Assembly: GCF_902762735.1 (NCBI RefSeq) | Contig: NZ_CACWPP010000025.1 | Location: 1-55,473, forward strand | Reading direction: 5' to 3' | DNA length: 55,473 nt | Source of the DNA: an uncultured Ruminococcus sp. | GTDB taxonomy: Bacteria > Bacillota > Clostridia > Oscillospirales > Ruminococcaceae | Shown here: one piece after another, positions 14,193 to 50,699 of the stretch | Numbering within the stretch: the first letter of the stretch is position 1 | How the letters are laid out: each line of letters opens with the position of its first letter | Notes under the pieces: generated by a model | The model's database searches: none | What the model saw: only the letters and a program-made list of their open reading frames with translations | Told to the model about the DNA's origin: nothing | Program-made: the position numbers and the translations under genes

Positions 14193-14335
14193 AAAACAAA
14201 TGTGGTTATCCCGCTGACACACCACAAAAACAGCGGCTATACAGAACTTAAGGTTCTTGGCGTATGGCGCTCAATTATCCTTTTGTTTACCGCATTTTTA
14301 GTTGGTGTGCTAAAGGGATAGTCATAAAAACAAAT
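14193..14335 (+). mobile_element. Family 1 MITE-like element, copy A with 9-bp target duplication
   Basis: The element at 14202-14326 (125 bp) starts GTGGTTATCCCGCTGACACA and ends ...GTGCTAAAGGGATAGTCATA; the ends are imperfect inverted repeats of ~24 bp. It is flanked by a perfect 9-bp direct repeat, AAAACAAAT, at 14193-14201 and 14327-14335. There is no coding capacity. The right duplication lies directly against the terminator hairpin at 14336. Copies B (37339), C (44783) and D (50573) share both ends. Confidence 0.9.
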
Positions 14336-14380
14336 ACCCCCGCCCGACTGCGATATTGCGTGTTCGGGCGGGGGTATTTC
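14336..14380. terminator. Bidirectional terminator between the CPBP and MATE genes
   Basis: Strong stem ATACCCCCGCCCG / CGGGCGGGGGTAT. On the minus strand the T tract that follows is part of the target duplication of the family 1 element. It serves the MATE gene ending at 14410 and possibly the CPBP gene. Confidence 0.75.
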
Positions 14381-14409
14381 ATATCATGCCGTGCAGCATT
14401 CAGACGGCA

Positions 14410-15747
14410 TCAGGCGGCTGATCTGTCGCGGCTGAAACGTCTGTATACCGCAAAACAAAGCGTTATCTGCAAAATAGTCGAGCATGGTGTAGCAAGTCCG
14501 ATGAGGGACAGCGAGCCTTTCCCGATGTGCTGCATTATCAGCGCAACTGGTATCCTTACCAGAAAAGCGCCGCAGATGCCCTGTATCATCACGAATGTGG
14601 TGCGCTGTATGCCGTTGTAGTAACCGATGAAGCAGAACAGGAAGCAGGTCAGCAGGCAGTCTATGGCGTAGGCTTTCAGGTAGTCCCATGCATCAGCGAC
14701 TGCTTCGCTGTTGTTCGAGAAAACACCTGCCAGCAAGTCACCGCGAAAGAATGTCAGCAGAAACATGACCACACCGAACGCAAATGATACGGTTATGCCT
14801 GTTTTAAGCGCCTTTGAAGCTCTGTCTGTTTTGCCTGCACCGTAATTCTGCGCCACAAAAGCCGACATCGACTGCATGAAAGCCGCAGGCACAAGCATTA
14901 TGAACGCGCAGACTTTCTCAGCTACGCCCACACCTGCCGAAGCCGTCAGGCTGATATTGTTGACGATAGCCAGCATGACAAGGAAAGAAATGCCTACCAG
15001 CAAGTCCTGCAAAGCGATGGGCGTTCCTATACGGAATATGGACGCGGCACAGCGGCTGTTGAGCTTGATGTGCGATCGGCGGAACTCAAATGGCAGGGCA
15101 GTGCGCCTGATTATGAACAGCGAGATAAGCACGCTTATAAGCTGCGCCAGGACGGTCGCCAGCGCCGCACCCGATGCGCCCATGTTCAGTTTTGCCACAA
15201 AGAAAAGGTCTCCGATTATGTTGAATATGCAGGCTATGCCCACTGCGATAAGCGGCGTGCGCGAATCGCCAAGCCCCCTGAAAATGCTTCCCAGCAGATT
15301 GTAAGCCGTTATTATCAGAAAACCCGAACCGCATATCCTTATATAGCTTGATGTGACTTTAAATGCTTCTGCGGGAGCGTTCATTATCTTTGCCAGCACC
15401 TCCGCGCCTGTAAGACACATTACAGTCAGTATCAGTCCCACAGCGGCAAATATCATAAGCCCTGTCCCGATGGTGTTTGCCGCCTCATCAGGGCGCTTCT
15501 GACCTATCTTCTGCCCTACGGAAACTGTTATGCCCATCGAAAAGCTGACCAGTATGTTTGTAAGCGTCATAATTATCTGTGAACCTGTCGATACCGCTGA
15601 AACTGCGGCGTTATCACTGAAACGCCCCACCACCAGCAGATCTGCCGCGCCGTACAGCGACTGCAAAAACATCGCAAACAGCACAGGCAGCATGAATTTC
15701 AGCAGTTTAGGCAGTATCGCGCCGCTTGTAAAATCATTGTCTTTCAT
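14410..15747 (-). CDS. MATE-family efflux transporter
   Basis: A 445-residue polytopic protein with about 12 membrane segments in two homologous halves, as in MATE (multi-antimicrobial extrusion) antiporters that use Na+ or H+. The N-terminal MLPVLFAMFLQSLYGAADLL and the second-half FVAQNYGAGKTDRA are typical family segments. The start at 15747 is chosen because GGAGG lies five bases upstream; a longer frame would begin inside the leader hairpin. It is preceded by a consensus promoter and an attenuator-like leader (15760-15809), suggesting induction by a compound. Substrate unknown. Confidence 0.9.
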   Translation of the reverse strand: MKDNDFTSGAILPKLLKFMLPVLFAMFLQSLYGAADLLVVGRFSDNAAVSAVSTGSQIIMTLTNILVSFSMGITVSVGQKIGQKRPDEAANTIGTGLMIFAAVGLILTVMCLTGAEVLAKIMNAPAEAFKVTSSYIRICGSGFLIITAYNLLGSIFRGLGDSRTPLIAVGIACIFNIIGDLFFVAKLNMGASGAALATVLAQLISVLISLFIIRRTALPFEFRRSHIKLNSRCAASIFRIGTPIALQDLLVGISFLVMLAIVNNISLTASAGVGVAEKVCAFIMLVPAAFMQSMSAFVAQNYGAGKTDRASKALKTGITVSFAFGVVMFLLTFFRGDLLAGVFSNNSEAVADAWDYLKAYAIDCLLTCFLFCFIGYYNGIQRTTFVMIQGICGAFLVRIPVALIMQHIGKGSLSLIGLATPCSTILQITLCFAVYRRFSRDRSAA

Positions 15748-15759
15748 AGTTACCTCCAT

Positions 15760-15809
15760 AAAAAAGCCGGATAAAACAGCAGACATCTCAGCCTGCGGTC
15801 TTATCCGGC
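15760..15809 (-). promoter_or_regulatory. Attenuator-like terminator in the MATE leader
   Basis: On the minus strand GCCGGATAA pairs with TTATCCGGC, with an inner GCAGGC/GTCTGC stem, followed by TTTTTTA and then at once the MATE ribosome binding site. Since the only promoter seen is upstream (15855-15883), this terminator would stop the MATE message unless disrupted. Confidence 0.7.
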
Positions 15810-15811
15810 AT
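15788..15811 (-). CDS. Possible leader peptide MPDKTAG in the MATE leader
   Basis: A 7-codon frame starts at the base of the terminator stem and ends in its loop region, so a ribosome on it would open the hairpin. GGAGGG lies upstream but at a long distance (~20 bases). Without evidence of translation this is a suggestion only. Confidence 0.3.
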   Translation of the reverse strand: MPDKTAG

Positions 15812-15854
15812 TACATTTCTGTCGAATGTGTTGCCCTCCGAACCAACTATATTG

Positions 15855-15883
15855 ATTATAACACACATAAGAAGCGGTGTCAA
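15855..15883 (-). promoter_or_regulatory. Consensus promoter of the MATE gene
   Basis: On the minus strand a perfect TTGACA, 17 bp, TATAAT. The leader to the ATG is about 100 nt. Confidence 0.85.
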
Positions 15884-16104
15884 GTGCTGTGACGGTGTTT
15901 GTATGTTGCACAAATATGAGCGCCGAAATTTGTGAACAATTCTTTGACAGTGTGGCTTGATTTGTTGTGCTTTTGTTGCGTTTGTTGTGGTATAATATGA
16001 AAAGCAGGCGGATAGCAATATCTCTTTGTCGTAATGCATAAAATTTAGTTTAAAACTTTGTTCAAAACTACAACAACAAAATGCTCAAAATTGTGTAAAA
16101 TTTG

Positions 16105-16133
16105 TTGCGCATTTTATGTTATTATGTTATAAT
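16105..16133 (+). promoter_or_regulatory. Promoter of the partner-switching operon
   Basis: TTGCGC, 17 bp, TATAAT. The -35 overlaps the right arm of an AAAATGC/GCATTTT inverted repeat (16078-16115), a possible operator. A second TATAAT lies at 15991 without a clear -35. The rest of 15884-16193 is AT-rich with no gene. Confidence 0.6.
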
Positions 16134-16193
16134 GTAAGAGGAAGAGGCAAACTCTTCAAATATGAAATTTGATTTTTGAAAGGAAAATGAAAA

Positions 16194-16490
16194 ATGGAGA
16201 TCAAAAAGGTAACTAACAATGGCACACTCAATGTAACTATCAGCGGCAGAGTCGATACGACAACCGCACCCGCTCTTGAACAGGAGCTGAAAGCAAGCTA
16301 TGGTGACTGTAATGCACTTGTCATTGATTTTGCCAATGTCGAGTACATCTCTTCGGCAGGTCTGAGAGTTCTGCTTTCTGCACAGAAAGTAATGTGCAAA
16401 AAGGACGGTATGAAGCTCATCAATGTCGGCGCGGATATTATGGAGATATTTGAAGTGACAGGCTTCAGTGATATTCTGACTATCGAGTGA
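16194..16490 (+). CDS. STAS-domain anti-sigma factor antagonist
   Basis: A 98-residue single STAS domain. The pattern ISGRVDTTTAPALEQEL followed by VIDFANVEYISSAGLRVLLSAQ is typical of SpoIIAA/RsbV-like proteins; Ser53/Ser54 in ISSAG are the likely phosphoryl acceptor. Unphosphorylated STAS would bind the HATPase encoded next and release its partner. First gene of a tight operon 16194-19697 with a kinase and a PP2C phosphatase, a complete partner-switching circuit. Confidence 0.9.
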   Translation: MEIKKVTNNGTLNVTISGRVDTTTAPALEQELKASYGDCNALVIDFANVEYISSAGLRVLLSAQKVMCKKDGMKLINVGADIMEIFEVTGFSDILTIE

Positions 16491-16906
16491 TGCATATGAA
16501 AAAAATAGAAGTACAGGCTTTAACTTCCGTACTGCCTGATGTGCTGGCGTTTGTGGACGAACAGCTCGAAGCGGCAGATTGTCCGATGAAAGTACAGATG
16601 CAGATAGATATTGCTGTTGAAGAGATATTTGTTAATATCGCTAACTATGCTTATGCCCCCGAAGTCGGAACAGCTGAGATCTGTATGGATATTGCGGATA
16701 ACACCGCAGTCATTACTTTCAAGGACAGCGGTACACCTTATGACCCGCTTGCAAAAGCCGATCCCGATGTCACTCTTTCTGCCGAAGAAAGGCAGATCGG
16801 CGGTCTTGGTATTTTCATGGTCAAAAAGACGATGGACGGTATGGAGTATAATTACATTGATGGTCACAATATTCTTACACTGAAAAAAGGACTGGTGATG
16901 GGGTGA
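16490..16906 (+). CDS. Anti-sigma-factor-like serine kinase (HATPase, RsbW type)
   Basis: About 138 residues, the size of RsbW/SpoIIAB-type GHKL kinases. The N box IAVEEIFVNIANYAY (residues ~40-54) and the G1 region FKDSGTPYDP with the later GGLGIFMVKKTMD are visible, so ATP binding is likely intact. It should phosphorylate the STAS protein and bind an unknown partner. The start is GTG 16487, ATG 16490 or ATG 16496; 16490 overlaps the previous stop. No sigma factor gene lies in the window, so the output partner is open. Confidence 0.85.
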   Translation: MHMKKIEVQALTSVLPDVLAFVDEQLEAADCPMKVQMQIDIAVEEIFVNIANYAYAPEVGTAEICMDIADNTAVITFKDSGTPYDPLAKADPDVTLSAEERQIGGLGIFMVKKTMDGMEYNYIDGHNILTLKKGLVMG

Positions 16907-19056
16907 TTAAGAAATTCGGAATGACTTTCGGCGGGCTTCAGCAGAAGATAATGAATCTGGTGCTGATTTTTATGCTGGCACTTATCGCTTTGTTTTCAGC
17001 TGTATCTGTATTTCAGATGAAGAAACTCAGCTCTGTCGTAGGTAAAGCAGGCAGCGAGCATCAGGAGGCTATTGAGAAGGTCTCCGGAAATACGATGCAT
17101 CAGGTCATCGAAAGTTCGATGACAAAGACAAATGCTCTCCAGGCGTATATAGCTGACGATATGTTCACAGATATTAAGACAGATGTTGCAACTCTGCAAA
17201 ATCTGGCAACGGGTCTGTTTGAACACAAGGACAGTTTTGAACCATACACTGCTTATCTTCCCGATAAGGCGAATGACGGCAAGTTCTCGGCACAGGTGCT
17301 GCATGAAGAAGGCGTTGACTATACTTCTTCCGAATATCTGGGCGTTGCGGCGCATATGAGCGAAACGATGATAGCTATGTGCGAGCAGTCAGAATATCTG
17401 AACAACTGCTTTATAGGTCTGGCGGACGGCACAGTTATCTGCGTTGATAACAACTCGGCAAGCAAGTTTGATGAAAACGGCAATATCCCTGCATTCGCTG
17501 TAAGGGAAAGACCCTGGTATACAGGCGCTGTCGAGGCGGGAGAGCTGTGCTTTTCCGGTATCGAACTTGATACCTACACCGATAATATCGGCATTGAATG
17601 CTCAGCACCTATATATGCCAACGGTGAACTGGTAGGCGTTGTGGGGGCAGACCTGTTTCTGGATTCGATGGGCGATTATGTAAATTCTTCGTCAAGTCAG
17701 GGCGGTTACATATCTGTTATCGACAACGGCGGCAAGGTCATATTTGCACCCGAGGGCAACGGCATATTTGAAGTAAAGCTGTCTGATGAGTCGGCTGATA
17801 TGAGAAACACCGATAATAAGGAGCTTTCTGCGTTTATCAATTCTGCTCTCAGCGAAAGGACAGGCTTGACCACAGTAAATGTGGACGGCAAAGACTACTA
17901 TATGACAGGCTCTCCCATGAGTACTATCGGCTGGGCAGTAGTTTCCTTTATCGAAAAAGAGATAACCGAACAGCCCACCAACATGATGATAGCTGAGTAT
18001 GACCGCATCAATGACGATGCAACAGGAAAGTTCGAGAGCGGACTGCAAAACTCAAAGAATACGACACTTGTTATGATCGCTGTTATTCTCGTGATGGGTA
18101 CTGTCGGGGCACTGGTAGTGGCTAACCGTATCGTAAAGCCCATCGAGAAAATGACAAAGCGCATGGACTCCATCAGCGGCTCAGACCAGGCGTTTGAGAT
18201 GGAAGATGACTACCGCACAGGTGATGAGGTAGAGATGCTGGCACAGAGCCTTGCAGATCTTTCGACCAAGACGAGACAGTATGTCACGCAGATCACAAAG
18301 ATCACAGCTGAAAAGGAACGCATCGGCGCTGAGCTGGAGCTTGCGACCAAGATACAGGCAGACATGCTTCCAAATCTTTTCCCTGCTTTCCCTGAAAGAC
18401 CCGAGTTCGATATTTATGCGACAATGACACCTGCAAAGGAAGTCGGCGGAGATTTCTACGATTTCTTCCTGATCGACGATGACCATCTCGGCATGGTCAT
18501 GGCAGATGTTTCGGGCAAGGGCGTACCTGCGGCACTGTTTATGATGATGTCCAAGATACTTGTGAACAACTATGCTATGATGGACGGTCATCCCGCTAAG
18601 GTGCTGGAAAAGGTAAATGCACAGATATGCAAGAACAATGACGAGGAAATGTTCGTTACAGTTTGGTTTGGCGTGCTGGAGATCTCAACGGGCAAGGTGA
18701 CTGCCGCAAATGCAGGTCACGAGTACCCGATAATCAAAAAAGCTGACGGCGGCTTTGAGCTGTTCAAGGATAAGCACGGCTTTGTCATCGGCGGTATGGA
18801 CGGTATGCGCTATAAAGAATATGAGTTCAGACTCGAAAAGGGCGGCACATTGTTCCTTTACACTGACGGTGTTGCAGAAGCTACAAACGCAAATAATGAG
18901 CTTTTCGGCACTGACAGGATGCTCGAAGCTCTCAATAAGGACAGCGAAGCATCGCCGAAGGAACTGCTCACCAACATGAAAACGGCAGTTGATGAGTTTG
19001 TCGGCGAAGCACCTCAGTTTGATGATCTGACAATGCTGGGTGTTAAACTAATTTAG
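16903..19056 (+). CDS. Cache-HAMP-PP2C (SpoIIE-like) phosphatase receptor
   Basis: A 717-residue membrane receptor. Membrane segment 1 (residues ~13-35), an extracellular Cache-like sensor (~50-370; RERPWYTGAVEAGE and DNIGIECSAPIYANGELVGVVGADLF are typical), membrane segment 2 (~385-407), HAMP (~408-465), a coiled coil, and a PP2C/SpoIIE domain (~490-717) with the metal-binding EVGGDFYDFF, MADVSGKGVPAALFM and FDDLTML. It should dephosphorylate the STAS protein in response to an outside ligand. The GTG start overlaps the kinase stop (GTGA), indicating coupling. Confidence 0.9.
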   Translation: MIKKFGMTFGGLQQKIMNLVLIFMLALIALFSAVSVFQMKKLSSVVGKAGSEHQEAIEKVSGNTMHQVIESSMTKTNALQAYIADDMFTDIKTDVATLQNLATGLFEHKDSFEPYTAYLPDKANDGKFSAQVLHEEGVDYTSSEYLGVAAHMSETMIAMCEQSEYLNNCFIGLADGTVICVDNNSASKFDENGNIPAFAVRERPWYTGAVEAGELCFSGIELDTYTDNIGIECSAPIYANGELVGVVGADLFLDSMGDYVNSSSSQGGYISVIDNGGKVIFAPEGNGIFEVKLSDESADMRNTDNKELSAFINSALSERTGLTTVNVDGKDYYMTGSPMSTIGWAVVSFIEKEITEQPTNMMIAEYDRINDDATGKFESGLQNSKNTTLVMIAVILVMGTVGALVVANRIVKPIEKMTKRMDSISGSDQAFEMEDDYRTGDEVEMLAQSLADLSTKTRQYVTQITKITAEKERIGAELELATKIQADMLPNLFPAFPERPEFDIYATMTPAKEVGGDFYDFFLIDDDHLGMVMADVSGKGVPAALFMMMSKILVNNYAMMDGHPAKVLEKVNAQICKNNDEEMFVTVWFGVLEISTGKVTAANAGHEYPIIKKADGGFELFKDKHGFVIGGMDGMRYKEYEFRLEKGGTLFLYTDGVAEATNANNELFGTDRMLEALNKDSEASPKELLTNMKTAVDEFVGEAPQFDDLTMLGVKLI

Positions 19057-19067
19057 GAGGATCTTTT

Positions 19068-21889: not shown

Positions 21890-22003
21890 TATTATTGACT
21901 CCTGATTTTTAAGTGTATTGCCGATGACAGAGAATGGCTTTTTCGTATTGTTATCCCGCTTTTGGCAGGGGAACGATACAAAATCAAATTGGGATATTAT
22001 TGA
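21890..22003 (+). mobile_element. Family 3 MITE-like element, copy 1 with 9-bp target duplication
   Basis: The element at 21899-21994 (96 bp) starts CTCCTGATTTTT and ends AAATTGGGA. It is flanked by perfect 9-bp direct repeats TATTATTGA at 21890-21898 and 21995-22003. A related copy lies at 35205-35303. It ends about four bases before the GGAGG site of the adaptor gene. Confidence 0.8.
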
Positions 22004-35195: not shown

Positions 35196-35312
35196 ATAAA
35201 GCAACTCCCGATTTTGATGTGTATTGCTGATGATACAAAATGGCTGTTCTTTCGTATTTTTCCCCTGCCGAAGGCGGTGGAAAAATACACAGCCAAATTG
35301 GGATTAAAGCAA
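35196..35312 (+). mobile_element. Family 3 MITE-like element, copy 2 with 9-bp flanking repeat
   Basis: The element at 35205-35303 (99 bp) starts CTCCCGATTTTG and ends AAATTGGGA, matching the copy at 21899-21994 at both ends and in the middle (GTGTATTGC, ATGGCT, TTCGTATT). The flanks ATAAAGCAA and TTAAAGCAA match at 8 of 9. It lies in a gene-free stretch (34947-35705) that otherwise holds only terminators. Confidence 0.75.
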
Positions 35313-35705: not shown

Positions 35706-37064
35706 TCACACCGAAGTGCCGTCAAAGAAGTCTTTCATCGTCTTTCTGCGGAGTATCGTGTAAGCCGTTACCAGCGCCGCGCAGGTCACTGCCCAGCTGA
35801 GGGGATAGGCTTTGAGCAGGGTGGAGAAAGTCTTGTGATGGCTGAACACTTTGTACACCCACGTTATGCGCACGCCGCAGATGCCGACGGTGCATATCAG
35901 CGCGGGTATGAACGAGCGTCCGTAACCGCGCATGCAGCCCGACATTATCTCGATGATGACGTTTATGCCCTCGCTGAGAAGCACGTATTTTATGCGTATC
36001 ATGCCGACGGATATGACCGTTGGGTCGGAATTGAAAATATGCAGGAGCGGCTTGCCTGCCAGCAGTATCAGCATTGACATGACAACTGTTACTATCATAT
36101 CCTGTGCCAGTGCGATCTTTGTGGCTCTTATGCAGCGCTCGGGCTGTTTCGCACCGTAATTCTGCCCCACAAAAGTCGTGCATGCCTGCCCGAAGGAGTT
36201 GAGTATGTAGTAGGCGAATATCTCAATGTTGAAAGCCGCCGATGAAGCCGCCATAACGTCACTGCCCAGCTTGTTTATCGAGGACTGTATGATGATATTC
36301 GATATGGCAAAGACCATGCCCTGTACGCCTGCGGGCAGACCGATGCTCACCATAGTGCTGAGCTGTTTCCTGTCAATGCCAAGTTCTGAGAAAGAGAAGC
36401 GTATCTCCGATGTTTCCCTTGAAAGGAAGAATATCAGCAGTACCGAACTTATGAGATTTGATATGACAGTCGCCAGCGCCACGCCGTTGACGGTCATTTT
36501 AAGCACGATGACAAAGAACAGGTTGAGCAGTACATTGATAATGCCCGATGTCAGCAGACATATCAGCGGTGTGCGTGTGTTGCCGTGACTTCTGAAAACT
36601 GCCGATGAAAAGTCGTAAAGCAGAATGACAGGCATTCCTGCCACGTAAACGCGGAAATACAGCAGTGCCATGCTGAAAACTTCATCGGGTATCGACATGC
36701 GGCTGAGTATCTGCACGGACAGCAGTTCGCATATTACCGCGAAAAGAATGCCGCCCGCGAAAGCGAACAGCAGGGAGGTATGCACTGCCTTGCGCACCTT
36801 ATCGGGTCTGTGCTGACCGATAAGTGTCGATATGACCACGTTCGCGCCGATGGAAATGCCTGTAAACAGGCTGAGTATCAGTGCGATGACAGGCGAGTTG
36901 CTCCCGACAGCCGCCATAGCGTTTTTGCCGACGAACCGTCCGACGACGGCTATATCAGCGGCATTGAAAAGCTGCTGTAAAATGCCTGTGGCTGCCAGCG
37001 GCACAGCAAATCTCATCAGCTTGTCACCGATAGTGCCGTGAAGCATATCCATGTTGTTTTTCAT
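35706..37064 (-). CDS. MATE-family efflux transporter
   Basis: A 452-residue polytopic protein with about 12 membrane segments in two halves. MRFAVPLAATGILQQLFNAADIAVVGRFVG and FVGQNYGAKQPERC are typical MATE segments (each quoted in part). It is a paralogue of the protein at 14410-15747 but clearly diverged. The start at 37064 (MKNNMDML) has GGAG nine bases upstream; a longer frame would start inside the leader terminator. The leader carries two hairpins, the first a full intrinsic terminator (37164-37188), so expression is probably induced by antitermination. Substrate unknown. Confidence 0.9.
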   Translation of the reverse strand: MKNNMDMLHGTIGDKLMRFAVPLAATGILQQLFNAADIAVVGRFVGKNAMAAVGSNSPVIALILSLFTGISIGANVVISTLIGQHRPDKVRKAVHTSLLFAFAGGILFAVICELLSVQILSRMSIPDEVFSMALLYFRVYVAGMPVILLYDFSSAVFRSHGNTRTPLICLLTSGIINVLLNLFFVIVLKMTVNGVALATVISNLISSVLLIFFLSRETSEIRFSFSELGIDRKQLSTMVSIGLPAGVQGMVFAISNIIIQSSINKLGSDVMAASSAAFNIEIFAYYILNSFGQACTTFVGQNYGAKQPERCIRATKIALAQDMIVTVVMSMLILLAGKPLLHIFNSDPTVISVGMIRIKYVLLSEGINVIIEIMSGCMRGYGRSFIPALICTVGICGVRITWVYKVFSHHKTFSTLLKAYPLSWAVTCAALVTAYTILRRKTMKDFFDGTSV

Positions 37065-37090
37065 TTTTAACATCTCCATACACATAAATA

Positions 37091-37116
37091 AGCTGTGACC
37101 GCTATATGTCACAGCT
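37091..37116 (-). promoter_or_regulatory. Second hairpin in the MATE leader
   Basis: AGCTGTGAC/GTCACAGCT, a near-perfect stem 11 bases before the GGAG site. On the minus strand TATTTA follows, a weak T tract. It could control ribosome access or act with the upstream terminator. Confidence 0.5.
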
Positions 37117-37163
37117 TGACGATCTTGCTCCCGACTGTGATGAATACTGCCGATGCACCGCAC

Positions 37164-37329: not shown

Positions 37330-37485
37330 AAAAGAAATGTGGTTATCCCGCTGACACACCACAAAAACAGCGGCTATACAGAACTTAAGGTTCTTGGCGT
37401 ATATCTTTCCCCCGCCGCAGGCGGGGGAAAGATAGTTTACCGCATTTTTAGTTGGTGTACTAAAGGGATAGTCATAAAAAGAAAA
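37330..37485 (+). mobile_element. Family 1 MITE-like element, copy B with 9-bp flanking repeat
   Basis: The element at 37339-37476 (138 bp) has the same ends as copy A. Flanks AAAAGAAAT (37330-37338) and AAAAGAAAA (37477-37485) match at 8 of 9. It contains an ATCTTTCCCCCGCC-type hairpin cassette that copy A lacks, and it lacks the CTCAATTATCC segment that A and C have. It abuts the hairpin at 37482-37524. Confidence 0.85.
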
Positions 37486-38349: not shown

Positions 38350-39609
38350 ATGGTAAAGGTAAAAGGAAAAATGTTAAAGACAGCCGCACTGACTGCTGCG
38401 ATCATGCTTTCTGTGGCAGCAGCACCCGTTGTGCAGAACGGTGGTTTGCAGACACCTCAGATAACGGCTTTTGCTTATGAAGAAACTGATTTTAACTATA
38501 CTACGGTGGAGTATAACGGCGTGTCCTACGCCAAGTATTCCGACCACGTTGAGGCTAGTGGGCTGACAGACAGCAATAAATCGGCTTCATCGGTGGTTAT
38601 ACCGTCCACAGTAGATGGTCTGCCTGTTACAGCCATCGCACGCAACGGCTTTACGTGCTGCCAAAATCTGAGCAGCATCACATTCCCTTCATCAATTAAG
38701 ACTATCGGCTACTATTCTTTCGGCTTCTGCGACGCGCTTGCTTCCGTAACTCTGCCGAGCGGTCTTGATACTATGGAAATGCATGCGTTCGAGTGCTGTT
38801 CAAATCTTTCAACAGTTGTGTTCCCGAACAAGCTGGTGAAGATACATGACAGGTGCTTCGAGTATACTCCGTGGATGAAAGCCAAAAAAGCGGAGAGCAA
38901 GCTCGTTACCGTAAACGGTGCGCTGATATATGCACAGGAAGCATCGGGCGACATCACACTGTCATCTGACATAAAGTATGTTTCTCCTGGTGCATTCTCC
39001 AGGAACAGCAATATCACATCTGTTGTATTCCCCGCAGGCATTACCGAACTCTGTGACAGCACTTTCTACATGTGCGACAATCTCAGGACAGTTGAACTGC
39101 CTGGTGTCACCAAGATATGCAATATGGCGCTGGGCGGCTGCAAATCGCTGAGAGATCTGAAGCTGTCAGGCAAGCTGACCAAGATAGAGGACTACGCTTT
39201 TATGGACACTGAGAATACTTGCAGTGTAACATTTTACGGTGATCATTCCGCATGGGGCAGGGTCGAAAAGCCTGACTGCACTTTCCTGAAAAACGCAAAC
39301 ATGGTATATGACACCAGCCACACCGAGCCTCAGCCGCAGACCGATCTCTATCCTGTTGTAAAGACACAGGTAAAGAACCACAAGATAGGTTTTAAGTGGA
39401 ATGCTGTTGAAGGTGCTGAAAAGTACGGCATCGGCGTATATCAGGCTAACAAGTGGGTGGTCAAGAAACAGGTCGATGCAAGCGTGCATACATGGACTTC
39501 ACCGCAGGTAGCCAACGGCACTTACAGGCTGGTAGTGCTGGCTAAGGTAAACGGTGACTGGGTAAAGGCTGATGTATTCAAGCATGCATTCTATGTTACC
39601 GTAAGCTGA
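38350..39609 (+). CDS. Secreted leucine-rich-repeat (BspA-like) protein with CBM37
   Basis: A 419-residue protein. A signal peptide (residues ~1-40, cleavage near ITAFA) is followed by a short linker, then LRR_5/BspA-type repeats (~70-320; units such as CQNLSSITFPSSIKTIGYYSF, in part), and a C-terminal module (~335-419) from YPVVKTQVKNHKIGFKWNAV to the end. That module matches the C terminus of the GH9 protein (KWNAVEGAEKYGIGVY against KWDKVEGADRYGIAVY) and is CBM37-like. No catalytic domain, so it is probably a surface adhesion or binding protein. A GGAGGA site precedes the ATG. Confidence 0.85.
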   Translation: MVKVKGKMLKTAALTAAIMLSVAAAPVVQNGGLQTPQITAFAYEETDFNYTTVEYNGVSYAKYSDHVEASGLTDSNKSASSVVIPSTVDGLPVTAIARNGFTCCQNLSSITFPSSIKTIGYYSFGFCDALASVTLPSGLDTMEMHAFECCSNLSTVVFPNKLVKIHDRCFEYTPWMKAKKAESKLVTVNGALIYAQEASGDITLSSDIKYVSPGAFSRNSNITSVVFPAGITELCDSTFYMCDNLRTVELPGVTKICNMALGGCKSLRDLKLSGKLTKIEDYAFMDTENTCSVTFYGDHSAWGRVEKPDCTFLKNANMVYDTSHTEPQPQTDLYPVVKTQVKNHKIGFKWNAVEGAEKYGIGVYQANKWVVKKQVDASVHTWTSPQVANGTYRLVVLAKVNGDWVKADVFKHAFYVTVS

Positions 39610-42681: not shown

Positions 42682-44478
42682 TTATTCGTCAAAGTTCTGC
42701 AAAGCATCGTATCCCTGCTCGCCTGTTCTTACCTTTACAACGTTCTCTATGGGGTAGATGAACAGCTTGCCGTCACCGATATTGCCTGTGTACAGCGCAG
42801 AACGTGCGGCATCTATGACCGTATTCACAGGCACTGCACAGACAACTATCTCTGCCTTTACCTTAGGCAGAAGGTTCATCTCGATAGCCGCGCCGCGATA
42901 GTAGTGCTGCTGACCGTTCTGCATGCCGCAGCCCAGAACATGGGTGATGGTTATGCCCGTAACGCTGATGTCTTCCATCGCCTGAATGAAATCGTTGAGC
43001 TTCTGCTCTTTGAAAATAACGACTATCTTTGTCATCACGGGCTTGCCGTTAGGTGAAGGCGCTGTATAGCTTTCGACCTCGACTGCCTTTTCAACCGGAA
43101 CGGGTGCCATAGCGGGAACGACTTTCTTGACGCTCTTAGCATCGCTCTTTGTGTAACCGAAGACAGATGCATCGTTCATCGAGGGTGCGAAGTCTGCATA
43201 AGATGAAACCAGACCATGCTCGGTTATATCCAGTCCGATTATCTCTTCCTGTTCGGAAGCTCTCAGACCGATAGTTTTCTTTATAATAAGGAAGGTGATC
43301 GTGATAGTCACTGCTGACCATGCACCAACGCTCACAAATCCCAGAAGCTGTAAGCCCAGCTGTTCAAAACCGCCGCCGTAGAAAAGACCCTCTGTTTTTA
43401 TGCCGCCGCTTGCCAGCTGTATCGCATATCCGGGTGAGGTCTCTGTTGCGAACAGACCGACGGCGATAGTTCCCCAGATGCCGTTCATCATGTGTACGCC
43501 CACAGCGCCCACAGGGTCATCTATGTGCAGTTTGTTATCAAGGAACCATACGCCGAAACATACGAGAAATCCCGAAACAAGACCTACCATTATCGCGCCG
43601 AAGCAGTCCATTACATCACAGCCTGCGGTTATGCCGACAAGTCCCGCAAGTGATGCGTTGAGACACATTGAAACATCAGGCTTGCCGTATTTGAGCCATG
43701 TGAATACCATGCAGGTAACGGTCGCTACGGCGGGGGCAACTGTTGTTGTGAGGAAGATAGAGTCCAGCTGACCGACGCTTGATGCTGCCGCAGGGTTAAA
43801 TCCGTACCAGCCGAACCAGAGTATGAACACACCCAGCGCACCGAGAGTGAGGTTGTGTCCGGGGATAGCGTTGACCTTGATCTCGCCGTCTTTTGTCTTG
43901 ACGAATTTTCCGATACGCGGTCCTACTATCTTTGCGCCTATCAGCGCACAGATACCGCCTACCATATGTATAGCGCATGAACCTGATATATCATGGAAGC
44001 CCAGCTGTGCAAGCCAGCCGCCGCCCCATATCCAGTGCGCCTCGACAGGGTAGATGAGTGCGCTGATGATACCCGAGTAAATGCAGTATGACAGGAACTT
44101 TGTACGTTCAGCCATAGCGCCCGAAACTATCGTGGCGGTTGTCGCGCAGAACACCAGGTTGAATACGAACTGATCCCACTGGAAATTCTCATAGCTTGTA
44201 AAAATATCAAATCCGGGTCTGCCTATCAGCCCTGCCGCATCTTCACCGAGAAGAAGCCCGAAGCCTATCGCGATGAATGCGACTGTGCCGATGCAGAAAT
44301 CCATCAGGTTTTTCATAATGATGTTGCCTGCGTTCTTTGCGCGTGTGAAGCCTGTCTCCACCATAGCAAAGCCTGCCTGCATAAAGAATACCAGCGCTAC
44401 CGCTACCATGAACCACACGCCGAATACCGTTTTATCGGTACTTTGCGTGACCTGTTCCAATATTTCCTGTACGTCCAT
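42682..44478 (-). CDS. Ammonium transporter fused to a PII regulator (Amt-GlnK)
   Basis: A 598-residue fusion. Residues ~20-410 are an Amt channel with about eleven membrane segments and the pore twin-His residues in VEAHWIWGG and VGVHMMNGIWG. A ~70-residue linker leads to a C-terminal PII domain (~480-598): KIVVIFKEQKLNDFIQAME, a T-loop segment QHYYRGAAIEMNLLPKVK with Tyr, and TGNIGDGKLFIYPIENVVKVRTGE. PII would gate the pore in response to ATP/ADP and 2-oxoglutarate; fusion keeps it tethered. The start at 44478 has GGGAGG; an earlier in-frame ATG would lie inside the leader hairpin. Confidence 0.9.
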   Translation of the reverse strand: MDVQEILEQVTQSTDKTVFGVWFMVAVALVFFMQAGFAMVETGFTRAKNAGNIIMKNLMDFCIGTVAFIAIGFGLLLGEDAAGLIGRPGFDIFTSYENFQWDQFVFNLVFCATTATIVSGAMAERTKFLSYCIYSGIISALIYPVEAHWIWGGGWLAQLGFHDISGSCAIHMVGGICALIGAKIVGPRIGKFVKTKDGEIKVNAIPGHNLTLGALGVFILWFGWYGFNPAAASSVGQLDSIFLTTTVAPAVATVTCMVFTWLKYGKPDVSMCLNASLAGLVGITAGCDVMDCFGAIMVGLVSGFLVCFGVWFLDNKLHIDDPVGAVGVHMMNGIWGTIAVGLFATETSPGYAIQLASGGIKTEGLFYGGGFEQLGLQLLGFVSVGAWSAVTITITFLIIKKTIGLRASEQEEIIGLDITEHGLVSSYADFAPSMNDASVFGYTKSDAKSVKKVVPAMAPVPVEKAVEVESYTAPSPNGKPVMTKIVVIFKEQKLNDFIQAMEDISVTGITITHVLGCGMQNGQQHYYRGAAIEMNLLPKVKAEIVVCAVPVNTVIDAARSALYTGNIGDGKLFIYPIENVVKVRTGEQGYDALQNFDE

Positions 44479-44500
44479 ATAGATTACCTCCCGTAACTTA

Positions 44501-44540
44501 AAAGGAGATGCGCAGGCATCTTTGCCCACGCACCTCCTTG
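44501..44540 (-). promoter_or_regulatory. Second hairpin in the amt leader
   Basis: On the minus strand AAGGAG-GTGCG...CGCAT-CTCCTT forms a long stem with GGGCA/TGCC at the top, then TTTT. It lies 23 bases before the start codon. Confidence 0.6.
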
Positions 44541-44748: not shown

Positions 44749-44777
44749 TTGACAAGCAGTGCAAATGGTGGTAAAAT
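44749..44777 (+). promoter_or_regulatory. purF promoter overlapped by a family 1 element
   Basis: TTGACA (44749-44754), 17 bp, TAAAAT (44772-44777). The left target duplication of copy C (44774-44782) overlaps the -10 box. The leader to purF is then about 430 nt and includes the element. Confidence 0.65.
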
Positions 44778-44951
44778 ATTATGTGGTTATACCGCTGACA
44801 CACCACAAAAACAGCGGCTATACAGAACTTAGGGTTCTTGGCATATATCTTTCCCCCGCCGCAGGCGGGGGAAAGATATGGGGTGCTCAATTATCCTTTT
44901 GTTCACCGCATTTTTAGTTGGTGTGCTAAAAGGATAGTCATAAAATATTAT
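44774..44951 (+). mobile_element. Family 1 MITE-like element, copy C with 9-bp target duplication
   Basis: The element at 44783-44942 (160 bp) is flanked by perfect 9-bp repeats AAATATTAT. It has both the hairpin cassette of copy B and the CTCAATTATCC segment of copy A, so it is the fullest copy. It is inserted at the -10 box of the purF promoter. Confidence 0.9.
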
Positions 44952-45157
44952 AAGAGTTTTCAGGCGGTGCGCGGCACAGTCGGCTTTTGCGGCATGTGCC
45001 TCTCCCATAAAGCGATGGAGAGATGACCGATGAAAACAAAGCATAACAAGCTGTCAGCATGTTATGATACGGCACGACAGATCCGCAGTGTCGGGTAAAG
45101 GTGCAAGGTCATCATCAATGCGGCAGACAGAAAAAATGATAAAGGTTCGGAACGACG

Positions 45158-45200
45158 GCGTTCACAGCAGGCACAAGTGTCTGCTGTGGGCGCTTTTTTA
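45158..45200 (+). promoter_or_regulatory. Terminator (attenuator) directly before purF
   Basis: GCGTTCACAGCAG pairs with CTGCTGTGGGCGC (13 pairs, two G-T), followed by six T, then the GGAGGT site of purF at 45205. No gene lies between the promoter and this terminator, so it should act as an attenuator. No riboswitch or T-box class was recognised in 44952-45157. Confidence 0.75.
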
Positions 45201-45217
45201 TTTTGGAGGTATATAAA

Positions 45218-46636
45218 ATGGGCGGATTACATGAAGAATGCGGTATAATGGGCATCTATCAGGAAAAAAGTTCGGCGCTGGCTGAAACGGTATACTACGG
45301 GCTGTATGCCTTACAGCATCGCGGACAGGAAGGCTGCGGGATAGCTGTCTGTGATGACGGCGTTATCACGGCGCACAAAGATGTGGGTCTGGTAGGGGAG
45401 GTCTTTGACCGCCGTACCCTAAGCGATATGCCCTGCGGCAGTATAGCTGTGGGACACGTCAGATATTCAACTACGGGCGGCAACGAGCGCCGCAACTGTC
45501 AGCCCATAGTCGTTAACCATCAGAAGGGCAGAATGGCGCTTGCACACAACGGCAACCTCTCAAATGCCGCAGAACTCCGCTCTGCACTGGAACTTTCGGG
45601 TGCTATATTCCACACTACTTCCGATACCGAAACGATAGCATATGAGATAACCAAGATGCGGCTGAAAACTTCTTCTATCGAGGAAGCTGTGCTGGGGACG
45701 ATGGATATTATCGAGGGCGCTTATTCGCTGGTGGTAATGTCGCCTACCAAGCTGATAGCTGTGCGCGACCCGTATGGCTTCAGACCCCTCTGCTATGGCA
45801 TAATGCCTGACGGCGGCTATGTTGTGGCATCGGAAAGCTGTGCGCTGACAGCCATCGGTGCAAAGTTCGGGCGCGACCTGAAAGCAGGGGAGATGCTGGT
45901 CTTTTCAAAAGACGGCATGCGTTCGGATACGAGCCACTGCGGCAAAAAGCCCCGCCGCACCTGTGTTTTCGAGTACATCTATTTCTCTCGCCCCGATTCA
46001 GTCATTGACGGCATTCCCGTTCACAGTGCGCGTCTTAAAGCAGGGCGTATCCTTGCAGAAGAACGCCCTGTCGATGCCGATATAGTCATCGGCGTGCCCG
46101 ATTCGGGTCTGGACGCTGCGCTGGGCTTCTCACAGGCTTCGGGCATACCCTACGGTATTGGTCTGATAAAAAACAAGTACATCGGCAGGACGTTCATCTC
46201 GCCCACACAGTCGGCACGCACAGACAAAGTGCGAATAAAGCTGGCGGCGGTGGAAGAGACTGTTCGCGGCAAGCGCGTGGTGCTGGTGGACGATTCGATA
46301 GTCAGGGGCACGACAGGCGGCAGGATAGTTGCACTGTTAAGGGACGCGGGCGCTAAGGAGATACATTTCCGTGTGTCAGCACCGCCGTTTCTGCACCCCT
46401 GTTATTACGGCACAGACATCGACTCGGAAAAAGGCTTGATAGCCTGTCAGCATACGGCTGATGAGATAGCCGCGATGATGGGTGCTGACAGTCTTGGCTA
46501 TCTGCCTGTCAGCCGCCTTGACGAACTTGGCGGTGAGGGCTGCTGCAAAGCATGCTTCAACGGCGATTACCCGACTGCTGTTCCGCTGGGCGCAGTAAAA
46601 GACAGATATGAGATGAAGCTGTCCGAAAAGCCGTAA
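45218..46636 (+). CDS. purF: Amidophosphoribosyltransferase
   Basis: A 472-residue enzyme for the first committed step of purine synthesis (PRPP plus glutamine to phosphoribosylamine). The N-terminal propeptide MGGLHEE precedes the catalytic Cys of CGIMGIY, exposed after processing. The glutaminase half has QHRGQEGCGI and HVRYSTTGG; the PRPP-binding loop is VVLVDDSIVRGTTGG near residue 355. Two later Cys-containing segments (CFNGDYP; PPFLHPCYYG) resemble those of Fe-S type PurF. The start at 45218 is set by GGAGGT and the propeptide length. No other purine genes are in the window. Confidence 0.95.
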   Translation: MGGLHEECGIMGIYQEKSSALAETVYYGLYALQHRGQEGCGIAVCDDGVITAHKDVGLVGEVFDRRTLSDMPCGSIAVGHVRYSTTGGNERRNCQPIVVNHQKGRMALAHNGNLSNAAELRSALELSGAIFHTTSDTETIAYEITKMRLKTSSIEEAVLGTMDIIEGAYSLVVMSPTKLIAVRDPYGFRPLCYGIMPDGGYVVASESCALTAIGAKFGRDLKAGEMLVFSKDGMRSDTSHCGKKPRRTCVFEYIYFSRPDSVIDGIPVHSARLKAGRILAEERPVDADIVIGVPDSGLDAALGFSQASGIPYGIGLIKNKYIGRTFISPTQSARTDKVRIKLAAVEETVRGKRVVLVDDSIVRGTTGGRIVALLRDAGAKEIHFRVSAPPFLHPCYYGTDIDSEKGLIACQHTADEIAAMMGADSLGYLPVSRLDELGGEGCCKACFNGDYPTAVPLGAVKDRYEMKLSEKP

Positions 46637-46682
46637 CCGCAAAGCCTCCTGTTATATGCCCCGAGATGCACATGATGAATCA

Positions 46683-46781
46683 TAGCGATCCGCCTTAAAA
46701 TTCAGACAAAATCCAGTCACAAAACCCATAGATCCTAGCTTTTGCGACTTGATTTTGTGAATTTAAACAGTCGGATCGCTA
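46683..46781. repeat. Family 2 palindromic repeat, copy 2 (inverted)
   Basis: The core at 46688-46776 is the reverse complement of 271-359 with three mismatches in 89. Its outer arms are TAGCGATCCG at 46683-46692 and CGGATCGCTA at 46772-46781, different from those of copy 1 yet again self-complementary. It lies between purF and the next promoter and may act as a terminator for purF. Confidence 0.8.
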
Positions 46782-46808
46782 TTGTGTTTATATCTATGTT
46801 AAAAATGC

Positions 46809-46837: not shown

Positions 46838-46996
46838 GATATAAATGATATATGAATTGTTATCAGAATGGCTGATAGTTTACTGCATCCACATTTTTTG
46901 GCTGCTGTTTTGGCTGAATGTCGGCATTCTGCAAGACGATATTATCAGACAGACCCCTGCGGAGCGGCATGGGCATATCGAATAAGGAGGAAAAAT

Positions 46997-49588
46997 ATGA
47001 ACAGAAATGTTAAGCGAATTGCAGCTGCGGCACTGGCTGTTATAATGGTCGCAGGGTATGCACCATCAGAATTTGGCAGTGTGATGAATTTTGGAACTTC
47101 GATAACTGCAAGTGCGGGTTCTACCGCTGACCTGAAACCGAATATCACAGACTGCGATATTTACGGCGATAATGAACATCTGAAAAATCTCGGCGTTCAT
47201 CTCAGCTGGCCGTCAGGGTACAGTCAGGTAAATGCTTCGCTTGTCGTGCTGAACACTGATATAAGAAGCGGCGGAACAGCCCTCATAAGCCTGTACAGCA
47301 ACAGCGGCACTACTAATTATGAAGAGTCGCTGAACTATGTCAAGTCCCGCGTTGCCGGCACTGAAGAAGTTTCAAGATCGGGCATTCCCGGCGGTGAAGG
47401 CAGCAGTACGCTCATGCCGGGCAGGTCTTATGATATAGGTATCGACTTTGATGAAGGTTCGATAAGTGTCAATGACAGCAAGAAGTATTACATATATCTC
47501 TGGTCATCAGGCGGCAACAGAGTTTATCCCGATATGCTCCTCGCTGTGGTAGAAGCGAAGCCTGACGGCTTCTTCTGGTATGCAGTCGGCAAGGACAGCG
47601 GCGAGATCGACCCTGACATCAAGATCAGACGCACAAGAAAGCTCGCGCTTGATGCGAAGGACGCTGTATATACAGGCAAGGGCTACAATGGGCTGAGTGT
47701 CAGTGTAAATGCCGATGAGGACGAAGTTCCCGAAATAATTTACAGCGGCATCAACGGCACTGATTATCCCGAGTCCTCCACTGCACCCGTAAACGTGGGA
47801 GATTACTCGGTGTCTGTATCCTATCCCGATACTGACAGCTACAAGGCGGACAGCGCTTATGCAGAATTCTCCATAACCAAAAAGGCGCTGACTGTAACTG
47901 CGGATGCTGTGTCAAAAACTTACGGTGAGAACGATCCCGAGCTGACTTATACCGCAGACGGGCTTGCAGCAGATGATGCTCTCACAGGCAGTCTTGCACG
48001 CGAAGCAGGTGAGAATGCAGGCAAATATGCAATATCTCAGGGAACTCTCGAAGCAGGCGATAACTATGATCTCACGTTCAAGGGTAATGATCTTACCATT
48101 GATAAGGCGGCAGTCAAAGTAACAGCTGCTGCTGTCAGCAAAACTTACGGCAAGGACGACCCTGCGCTGACTTACACGGCAACAGGTCTTGTGGGTGACG
48201 ATGAGCTGACGGGTGAGCTTACCCGCGAAGCAGGTGAGAATGCAGGCACTTATGCTATAAAGCAGGGCACTCTTTCCGCAGGCACGAACTATACCGTTGA
48301 TTATACAGGTGCTGAATTTACCATAAATAAGGCACAGATAACCATTACTGCCGATGACAAGAGCAGTCAGTACGGCGATGATGTCACTGAGCTTACTTAT
48401 CAGATAGGCGGCGATATTGTTGAGGGTGACGATCTGGGCATTACTGTAACTTGCGACGCTGAAAAGACATCCGGTGCAGGTGAGTATGATATAACTGTTG
48501 ACTGGAACAAAAACAGCAACTATGATGCTGAGATTGTCGGCGGCAAGTACACCGTCACCAAAGCTCCGCTTGCGATAACTGCAAAGGGTGTTGATGTTGC
48601 TTATGACGGTCTTTCACACAGAATAAATGTTGACATCGGCAACTCCGATGCGGAAGTTTACTATGCCGAAGAAGAGCTTACTGCTGAAAACTATGAGACA
48701 GCAGGCAGCAAAACTGCTCCCGCATACACCGATGCAGGCGAGCACACTGTTTATTTCTATGTCGTATCCGATAATTACGAAGCCGACCCTGTCAGCGGCA
48801 GCAAGGTCGTAAATATCAGAAAGATAAGCCCTGAATATTCCGTTGGTGTAAATGATGAGCAGGTATATAACGGCAAAGCGCAGGAGCTTATCGACTCGGC
48901 AAATACCAACGATGGTACTGTCGTTTTTTCGGATAGTGCTGACGGAGAGTATACTGAGACTATCCCTGCTGAGACAAATGCAGGCACTTACAGCATCTGG
49001 TTCAAGGTCATAGGAGACAAAAATCACCTTGATTCTGAACCTGTGCTGATGCAGGCAAAAATACTGAAAGCTGACCCTGTTGTGACAACAGTTCCCGCCG
49101 CAAAGGAACTGACTGCTGACGGAAAAGCACAGGCGCTTGTCACCGAAGGCGCAACTGCTGACGGAGAGCTTGTTTATGCAGTCAGCTCCGATAAGGATAA
49201 AGCACCCGCTGATGATGCTTTCGGCAAGGCAGTGCCTGCGGGTACTGAGGCAGGCACATATTATGTGTGGTACAAGGTCATCGGCGATGCAAACCACAAT
49301 AACAGTGAACCTGTTAGTGTTGAAGTCAAGATAGCCGAAGCTAAGGCAAATGACAGCAGTTCCAAGAATGACAGCAGTTCCAAGAACGACAGCAGTTCCA
49401 AGAATGAAAGCAGTTCAAAGAATGACAGCAGTTCCAAGAATGACAGTTCTAAGGCAAACAGTTCAGCCGCAGGCACTAACAACAATTCCGCAGGCAACCC
49501 GTCAACAGGCGCACATGCCGCAGGTATGGGCACTCTGGCGATCGCAGCAGCTGCGATAATAGCTTCCAAGAAGAAAAAAGGCAAATGA
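46997..49588 (+). CDS. Wall-anchored MBG-repeat surface protein
   Basis: An 863-residue secreted protein. A signal peptide (residues ~1-38) is followed by an N-terminal domain of unknown type (~40-210), then a series of MBG-type beta domains (~215-780): KALTVTADAVSKTYGENDPELTYT and AVKVTAAAVSKTYGKDDPALTYT are tandem copies (in part), with further diverged units after them. A Ser/Asn/Lys/Asp-rich linker (~785-825) and a sortase signal NPSTG, hydrophobic stretch and KKKKGK end the protein. The start at 46997 has AGGAGG. It is likely an adhesin or structural wall protein; no ligand can be named. Confidence 0.85.
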   Translation: MNRNVKRIAAAALAVIMVAGYAPSEFGSVMNFGTSITASAGSTADLKPNITDCDIYGDNEHLKNLGVHLSWPSGYSQVNASLVVLNTDIRSGGTALISLYSNSGTTNYEESLNYVKSRVAGTEEVSRSGIPGGEGSSTLMPGRSYDIGIDFDEGSISVNDSKKYYIYLWSSGGNRVYPDMLLAVVEAKPDGFFWYAVGKDSGEIDPDIKIRRTRKLALDAKDAVYTGKGYNGLSVSVNADEDEVPEIIYSGINGTDYPESSTAPVNVGDYSVSVSYPDTDSYKADSAYAEFSITKKALTVTADAVSKTYGENDPELTYTADGLAADDALTGSLAREAGENAGKYAISQGTLEAGDNYDLTFKGNDLTIDKAAVKVTAAAVSKTYGKDDPALTYTATGLVGDDELTGELTREAGENAGTYAIKQGTLSAGTNYTVDYTGAEFTINKAQITITADDKSSQYGDDVTELTYQIGGDIVEGDDLGITVTCDAEKTSGAGEYDITVDWNKNSNYDAEIVGGKYTVTKAPLAITAKGVDVAYDGLSHRINVDIGNSDAEVYYAEEELTAENYETAGSKTAPAYTDAGEHTVYFYVVSDNYEADPVSGSKVVNIRKISPEYSVGVNDEQVYNGKAQELIDSANTNDGTVVFSDSADGEYTETIPAETNAGTYSIWFKVIGDKNHLDSEPVLMQAKILKADPVVTTVPAAKELTADGKAQALVTEGATADGELVYAVSSDKDKAPADDAFGKAVPAGTEAGTYYVWYKVIGDANHNNSEPVSVEVKIAEAKANDSSSKNDSSSKNDSSSKNESSSKNDSSSKNDSSKANSSAAGTNNNSAGNPSTGAHAAGMGTLAIAAAAIIASKKKKGK
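49352..49453 (+). repeat. 18-bp tandem repeat encoding a DSSSKN linker
   Basis: About five copies of GACAGCAGTTCCAAGAAT with small changes, in frame, encode the spacer before the sortase signal. The repeat number could vary by slippage. Confidence 0.8.
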
Positions 49589-49597
49589 TAGTTTCTT

Positions 49598-49630
49598 GCA
49601 GACCGTCCGCATGGGCGGTCTGCTTTTTTG
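49598..49630 (+). terminator. Terminator of the MBG-repeat gene
   Basis: GCAGACCGTCC/GGGCGGTCTGC stem followed by six T. Confidence 0.85.
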
Positions 49631-49677
49631 TGTAGGCTTGATTAGGGAACAGATGCCCCTAACGAATATCGCGTATA

Positions 49678-49716
49678 TCGAAAACAGCGGCAGGTGTATC
49701 ACACTTGCCGCTGTTG
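49678..49716 (-). terminator. Terminator of the glycosyltransferase gene
   Basis: AACAGCGGCA/TGCCGCTGTT stem with inner GTGT/CACA pairing; on the minus strand TTTTCG follows. Confidence 0.7.
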
Positions 49717-49741
49717 TAATTGTCTGATAAATTGGATAGTT

Positions 49742-50479
49742 CTAGCGCACATCATAATAGAAGCTGTCCGCCGCTTCACGGTCCTTGCCCGTAAAAATGC
49801 GTTTTGTGAGTTTGCGGTTCTTTATCAGATACCAGTCGCCGAACTCATCAAACTTGCGCGAAGATGTAAGCACATACGAACGTTTCAGCGTGCCGTATTT
49901 CAGCCCTCGCTTCTGACCCTCCTTTTTCAGCCTGACAGCGAGATCCATGTCCTCAAGACTGACCAGGCTTTCGTCAAAACCGTTGACTGCTTCAAAATCA
50001 CGCTTGTAGAACCAGAACATCGCACCACTGAGATAGCCGCCGTTTTTCAGCATTACAGGCAGAAGATTGAAGGCTACATACAGCGAAGAGACCGCTATCC
50101 CCAAAGATGCCCTGTCAAATTTCGGGTTAGTGCCGCCGCCGATGTATTTGCCGCTTTCCAGCTTTTCTCTTATCTCACAGAGCGAATATTTTGTCATCAG
50201 GCTGTCAGCATCTATCGTTACGATGATCTCGCCTTTTGCAGCTTTTACCCCCGTATTCCTGACAGCGGCGATGCATTTTTTGTCATTTACCAGTACCCCT
50301 GCGCCATAGTGTTCGGCTATCGCGCAGGTCTTATCGGTGCATCTGTTAGCAACAACGATGATCTCAACATTGTCGGGTCTGACATATTTTGATGCACTTA
50401 TGACCGCCCTCAGGCACTTGCCGATGTATTTTTCTTCATTATGTGCAGGTATCACGACTGAAAACTTTGTATTGTCCAT
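49742..50479 (-). CDS. Family 2 glycosyltransferase
   Basis: A 245-residue GT-A fold enzyme without membrane anchor. FSVVIPAHNEEKYIGKCL starts the nucleotide-sugar domain, IDADS near residue 92 is the metal-binding DxD-type motif, and SLEDMDLAVRLKKEG near 172 is the catalytic ED region. The acceptor and donor are unknown. The start at 50479 (MDNTKF) has AGAGGTG; an in-frame ATG 24 bases earlier has no site. It stands alone beside family 1 copy D. Confidence 0.85.
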   Translation of the reverse strand: MDNTKFSVVIPAHNEEKYIGKCLRAVISASKYVRPDNVEIIVVANRCTDKTCAIAEHYGAGVLVNDKKCIAAVRNTGVKAAKGEIIVTIDADSLMTKYSLCEIREKLESGKYIGGGTNPKFDRASLGIAVSSLYVAFNLLPVMLKNGGYLSGAMFWFYKRDFEAVNGFDESLVSLEDMDLAVRLKKEGQKRGLKYGTLKRSYVLTSSRKFDEFGDWYLIKNRKLTKRIFTGKDREAADSFYYDVR

Positions 50480-50563
50480 ATTACACCTCTCTGATATTCC
50501 CAAAGATCACCGCCGAAGTCTTACGCGGTATATATATTATATAGTATATCAGTCGTTTTGTCA

Positions 50564-50699
50564 ATTATTTGATATGACTATCCCTTTAGCACACCACTGC
50601 AAAATACCTTTATCAATGAGGAAAAACTGAGTTGATGTTATCTTTCACGGTATAACATCGTTTATTTTTGTGTATCAGCGGGATGATCACATTATTTGA
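50564..50699 (-). mobile_element. Family 1 MITE-like element, copy D with 9-bp target duplication
   Basis: The element at 50573-50690 (118 bp) is in reverse orientation. Its ends TATGACTATCCCTTTAGCAC and TGTATCAGCGGGATGATCAC match the family ends; the interior is different. Perfect 9-bp repeats ATTATTTGA flank it at 50564-50572 and 50691-50699. Confidence 0.85.

Follow-up and report, generated by a model that had tools for sequence, protein, structure and literature searches.

High-copy MITEs with IS1595-type ends and 8-bp target duplications in an uncultured Ruminococcus

Four short elements lie in the 55,473-nucleotide stretch of DNA from an uncultured Ruminococcus sp. that was analysed here (hereafter, the window). 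We are highly confident that they are MITEs mobilised in trans by an IS1595-family DDE transposase, which recognises their ends, and that they insert into AT-rich sites with an 8-bp duplication. That they moved by non-autonomous transposition had been proposed in a preliminary description of the same DNA, and this is borne out by copies with duplications throughout the genome, by a parent-type IS1595 element and by two empty sites in a relative. The source genome is a 4.06-Mb draft in 242 contigs, and the bacterium is close to Ruminococcus albus. Among the relatives compared, G023 is R. albus 7, as judged from identical plasmid coordinates, and the coordinates of G024 fit contig00045 of R. albus 8.

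Results and discussion

Elements in the window

The features of the window are collected in Table 1. All four elements begin with T and end with A, and the imperfect 24-bp inverted ends of the MITEs read TGTGGTTATCCCGCTGACACACCA and TATGACTATCCCTTTAGCACACCA. The places assigned to copies A-D in the preliminary description were right, with starts and ends up to one base off; its set of four overlooked a decayed MITE1-type copy, which is interrupted by a different small palindromic element with ends like TATAGCAATCC and GGATTGCTATA and perhaps a TA duplication. An Rfam scan of the window gave no match at the gathering threshold.

Copy A sits between convergent genes for an Rce1-like protease (13213-14061, +) and a MatE protein (14410-15786, -). 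The neighbours of copy B are a second MatE gene (35706-37163, -) and an LRR_5 gene (38350-39609, +), and those of copy D are a glycosyltransferase gene (49742-50503, -) and a GNAT gene (50719-51357, -). Copy C has an ammonium transporter gene (42682-44529, -) on its left; on its right stands a gene (45203-46636, +) that encodes GATase and phosphoribosyltransferase domains and is called purF-like below.

Table 1. Positions of the elements, their duplications and associated features in the window
Feature	Position	Strand	Description
Copy A	14201-14326	+	MITE1 without central GC hairpin, 126 bp
Copy A duplication	14193-14200 and 14327-14334	+	AAAACAAA, perfect 8 bp
Copy B	37338-37476	+	MITE1 with central hairpin, 139 bp; internal deletion relative to C
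Copy B duplication	37330-37337 and 37477-37484	+	AAAAGAAA, perfect 8 bp
Copy C	44782-44942	+	MITE1 with central hairpin, 161 bp
Copy C duplication	44774-44781 and 44943-44950	+	AAATATTA, perfect 8 bp
Central GC palindrome of copy C	44845-44879		ATATCTTTCCCCCGCC, loop GCA, GGCGGGGGAAAGATAT
Copy D	50573-50691	-	MITE2 subfamily without central GC hairpin, 119 bp
Copy D duplication	50565-50572 and 50692-50699	+	TTATTTGA, perfect 8 bp
Decayed MITE1-type copy	190-413	-	By eye; left limit approximate; interrupted at about 264-366; no clear duplication
Small palindromic element	264-366 and 46681-46783		Also inside a MITE1 at L073:11806-12032
F3 copies	21899-21995 and 35205-35304		About 100 bp; perfect 8-bp duplications
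Promoter-like site	44749-44777	+	TTGACA-17-TAAAAT; -10 extends into the duplication and stops four bases short of copy C
Terminator-like hairpin	45157-45194		Directly before the purF-like gene

Length of the target duplication

The elements had been described as flanked by 9-bp repeats, three of the four perfect. The duplication is real, but its length is 8 bp, the ninth base being the element's own first T; re-cut at 8 bp, the repeat of copy B is perfect too, and all four are exact. Among 49 MITEs with exact 8-mers, the ninth base obtained by extending the left copy with the element's first T matches in 40, and the alternative ninth base, supplied by the element's last base, matches in 42; mismatches inside the 8-mer amount to 1.7% of positions (counted in the 58 pairs with one mismatch or none). 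In the 16 copies of the parent IS with exact 8-mers, the first-base and last-base ninth positions match in 0 and 10 copies, respectively. On these match rates in the MITEs and the parent IS a 9-bp duplication was rejected: the ninth base behaves as a target preference (A before, T after) and not as duplicated DNA, and copy B is thus not imperfect. The base before the 8-mer is A in 12 of the 16 IS copies and 43 of the 49 MITEs, and the base after it is T in 16 and 38, respectively.

The duplication extends well beyond the window. A 434-kb sample, composed of the window and loci L061-L080 (378,902 bases, picked near known hits and therefore biased), contained 42 paired elements of 102-227 bp without a transposase gene, 23 of them with exact duplications and 5 with one mismatch. 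When G024 and G002 were added to our own samples, 129 pairs were obtained (88 with IS1595-type ends, 36 of the family F3 and 5 mixed with F3). Of the 88, 50 have exact duplications and 58 are within one mismatch, compared with 0.15% and 0.97% in a control that paired the flanks of different elements. The other 30 show no duplication within one mismatch. Copies lacking a flanking repeat had been named beforehand as evidence against transposition, and we judge them outweighed by the remaining evidence; absent duplications are usual for old or recombined copies.

Copy number and distribution

A search of the whole 4.06 Mb with both end types returned 358 + 350 = 708 matches at up to two mismatches and none for the reversed control, such that the ends are not due to chance; the cores of the left-type end gave 227 + 224 matches at up to three mismatches, with 2 in the control. 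Copies with flanking duplications occur genome-wide. If all 708 ends were paired, they would represent about 350 elements. A coordinate-fixed sample, screened with a detector limited to substitutions and to known modules, yielded 53 IS1595-type half-ends in 455,473 bases, which corresponds to some 470 ends, or some 235 elements, genome-wide, and one scan scored 40 of 457 candidates, a figure which is not a copy count. The safe statement is that the genome contains a few hundred elements.

Among 61 genomes searched, the ends were found in 14, all of them among the 29 of the same genus (Ruminococcus) and none among the 32 others; G020 has 145 matches and G002 has 22. Searches of plasmid and phage records with copy C, and of viral contigs with one exact 37-base pattern, gave no match.

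Parent-type IS1595 element

A full insertion sequence with ends similar to those of the MITEs and an 8-bp duplication was found in R. albus 7. Like the MITEs, it has 24-bp ends of the same form, an AT-rich duplication and a similar YA..TR target; unlike them, it is 1023 bp long and encodes a 291-aa transposase. The R. albus 7 record NC_014824.1 matches it with 100% identity at identical coordinates and annotates it as an IS1595 family transposase, and the encoded protein combines a DDE domain with an N-terminal zinc ribbon, as expected of the family (Pfam DDE_Tnp_IS1595, E 1e-21; Zn_ribbon_IS1595, 1.4e-10; NCBIfam transpos_IS1595, 1.3e-47). There are 42 matches to the protein in this genome, 25 of them full length, and an exact 8-bp duplication is present at 16 of 18 IS loci examined (all except L129 and L130). 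None of five full-length IS loci outside this genome (L082, L088, L092, L143 and L146) has an exact duplication; L092 and L146 have identical flanks. The same IS occurs in named records of R. albus AR67, KH2T6 and 8, of the Ruminococcus sp. MAGs RGIG7433 and RUI259, and of an Oscillospiraceae MAG (13 loci).

The ends of IS and MITEs match imperfectly (CCCTTTAACACACCA versus CCCGCTGACACACCA), and the full IS at L128 has an end, TATGGTTATCCCCCTGACACACCA, that is intermediate between the two. The short elements show features expected of MITEs, namely inverted ends like those of an autonomous IS, imperfect but clear, and a duplication of the parent's length. The MITE interiors aligned to the IS with p values of 0.06 (A), 0.05 (B), 0.08 (C) and 0.51 (D) in 300 shuffles each, not clearly better than the shuffles, and the idea that they are a cut-down IS is unsupported; not all MITEs need have an interior that arose from the parent by deletion.

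The preliminary description placed the parent transposase outside the window, and indeed the three IS1595 matches in the genome all lie on contigs other than the window's. A complete IS1595 gene was not found in this assembly, which has three pieces, two of them at contig edges: C167:3-374 (124 aa, 87% identity; the contig begins inside the gene), C4:68910-69011 (at a contig end) and C64:8104-8217 (with stops). Draft assemblies can break at a repeated IS, so that the pieces do not imply the lack of an intact copy. We infer that a working IS1595 copy exists or existed in this genome. At the cut-offs used, no IS1595 gene was detected in G020 (76% complete) or G002. The IS is plentiful and MITE ends are scarce in R. 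albus 7; in the window's genome the proportions are inverted.

Empty sites

Ninety empty-site queries were compared with the sampled loci, and two gave clear junction-spanning matches, both at L075. This locus carries a MITE2 and an F3 copy; the aligned stretch of G024 (89% identity over 1007 bases) has neither, and a single 8-mer stands at each of the two sites, TTTCGCTT (one substitution) and TCAATTTT. The remaining queries returned nothing, their own locus or its neighbours, or other repeats. An element-free locus with two copies of the repeat, which would speak against transposition, was seen at none of the sites examined. Identity between the window's genome and G024 is 74% in the purF-like gene, and at 89% the G024 stretch may therefore have been exchanged between the two genomes. 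At copy C, the gene order of ammonium transporter and purF-like gene is kept in R. albus 7 without the element; an exact empty site was not obtained there, the intergenic DNA being too diverged. The recent movement suggested earlier is plausible, but carries no date, and the mean column identity of the MITE1 alignment is 83% (37 of 48 MITE1 pairs, hand-chosen without nested or strongly deleted copies).

Families and the central palindrome

The 42 paired elements of the coordinate-fixed sample, which consists of the window and loci L152-L171, comprise 10 MITE1, 8 MITE2, 1 MITE4, 18 F3 and 5 mixed elements. F3 has ends of its own, CTCCCAATTTTGATGTG and ATCCCAATTTGGTTGTG (18 paired copies in the 455-kb sample), and its target pattern differs from that of the elements with IS1595-type ends (20 elements). 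Exact duplications flank 20 of its 36 pairs, and 32 of the 36 are within one mismatch.

A GC palindrome with the core CCCCCGCC/GGCGGGGG and a 3-base loop occupies the middle of MITE1, MITE2 and F3 copies. It occurs at 183 sites in the window's genome (control, 0) and in 9 of the 29 genomes of the genus; as G002 has 43 palindrome sites against only 22 ends, it is not tied to the families with IS1595-type ends alone. Among 74 hairpins in our own samples, 67 adjoin a recognised MITE half and 7 adjoin none. The stem is 96.6% paired in the 37 aligned MITE1 rows (of 48; about 19 with the hairpin), a value reached by none of 500 shuffles, and 3 of its 16 pairs change on both sides, a count also attained in 12 of the 500 shuffles and in one slid control. 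Covariation over the whole MITE1 element involves 3 of 31 predicted pairs, and as RNA the elements fold end to end (z of -4.1, -6.6, -7.0 and -2.2 for A, B, C and D). Read in the same orientation, 14 MITE1 rows carry GCA as the loop, 3 carry the reverse complement TGC and 20 of the 37 lack such a loop; from these loops it looks as if the palindrome can flip.

Hybrids with swapped halves

Some copies join halves of different families at the palindrome. MITE1/MITE2 hybrids with perfect duplications were found at L154:6021-6183 and L164:10682-10798, and a MITE2/F3 hybrid at L168:4503-4651 also has a perfect duplication (TTAATTAT), hinting that one transposase may pair MITE2 and F3 ends. Duplications within one mismatch accompany 5 of 14 hybrids versus 86 of 115 pure pairs (Fisher p 0.005); L078, counted as a hybrid, reads instead as a MITE1 with a deletion.

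For two other hybrids, the whole genome was searched for the expected partner junctions: the first pattern had no match, and the second matched once, with one mismatch, at a normal F3 copy flanked by a duplication of its own. For the 8 testable among 9 duplication-less hybrids, the sampled loci gave several partial, weak matches (L163, L062, L068:6276, both L080 hybrids and L180). On these searches, recombination between distant copies is not confirmed as the source of hybrids. At L064 (4469-4753), two adjacent MITEs are accompanied by the same 8-mer, TTTTTAAT, three times, and in view of this arrangement a half-swapped hybrid with a perfect duplication could also stem from neighbouring insertions followed by a deletion. 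That the palindrome common to the three MITE families is an exchange point, from which hybrid MITEs able to transpose arise, is a tentative proposal that we consider rather doubtful as yet.

Leader of the purF-like gene

A promoter-pattern search of the region at copy C found 2 sites, with a mean of 1.1 in shuffled sequences. The position of the promoter-like site (Table 1) suggests that a transcript would begin inside the element, and copy C may thus supply the start of the leader RNA. In R. albus 7, which lacks the element, TTGACT-17-TATCAT stands at the corresponding place (by eye). A sequence similar to the terminator-like hairpin is also found at its place in that genome (by eye), suggesting a leader or attenuator.

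Mode of transposition and alternative explanations

In the proposed mechanism, an IS1595-family DDE transposase would recognise the 24-bp imperfect inverted MITE ends in trans and direct insertion into AT-rich targets that roughly follow the pattern YA-[8 bp]-TR, where gap repair would leave the 8-bp duplication. Judging from the similarity of ends and targets, the IS1595 transposase described here very probably moves the MITEs; because the match between IS and MITE ends is imperfect, the actual helper could be a different IS1595 variant. It is improbable that the elements are moved by a different, non-IS1595 transposase with similar ends and 8-bp duplications. Such an enzyme would accord with the assembly having no detected intact IS1595 gene, with the two MITE-bearing genomes (G020 and G002) in which the gene was not detected, and with F3, a second MITE family with 8-bp duplications and other ends that needs a helper as well; yet full-length IS1595 elements of the same genus agree with the MITEs in the form of their 24-bp ends and in duplication length, and have a similar target.

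Still less credible is the view that the elements are functional intergenic repeats, such as terminators or REP-like palindromes, spread by recombination and not mobile. None of 24 elements with IS1595-type ends lies inside crude ORF calls, compared with 86.6% of random placements, a comparison biased by the fact that insertion into a gene breaks the ORF, and 5 of 18 F3 elements do lie inside such calls. The end-to-end RNA hairpins of copies A-D and the paired changes in the GC hairpin would also suit a function, but palindromy is expected of MITEs, and the exact duplications and empty sites argue for mobility. A secondary regulatory role of the elements is possible.

Relation to known elements

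PMC8101967 gives 8-bp duplications as usual for IS1595 members, and PMC12561309 reports A/T-rich 8-mers left by ISApl4; ISXO2-like genes are mentioned for Thiomargarita in PMC4853749. Like Correia, ERIC, Chunjie and QMITE elements, as treated in the main text of the review PMC10969869, the Ruminococcus elements are short, with inverted ends and duplications, are often intergenic and can reach high copy numbers, for which that text cites more than 120 Correia elements in N. gonorrhoeae and 711 ERIC elements in Photorhabdus luminescens. Unlike those elements, they have IS1595 as parent family and share a GC palindrome between families, with half-swapping; the same main text contains no mention of IS1595, Ruminococcus, mosaic or hairpin. 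TIMEs (PMC4133298) are, by the title of that paper, mosaic and non-autonomous like the present elements and, unlike them, derived from Tn3. Among the titles and abstract beginnings of the literature matches listed, none names these MITEs, in a search whose coverage leaves out most subscription journals. The elements are solidly identified as a known kind, of which they form a new high-copy member, unusually abundant and modular, with half-swapped families.

Conclusions

A very abundant Ruminococcus repeat, present in a few hundred copies and making up about 1% of the genome by arithmetic, can now be linked to a recognisable IS1595 helper, and the ends and the target of the repeat are defined exactly. 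If the palindrome does act as an exchange point, it would be one route by which bacterial MITE families diversify.
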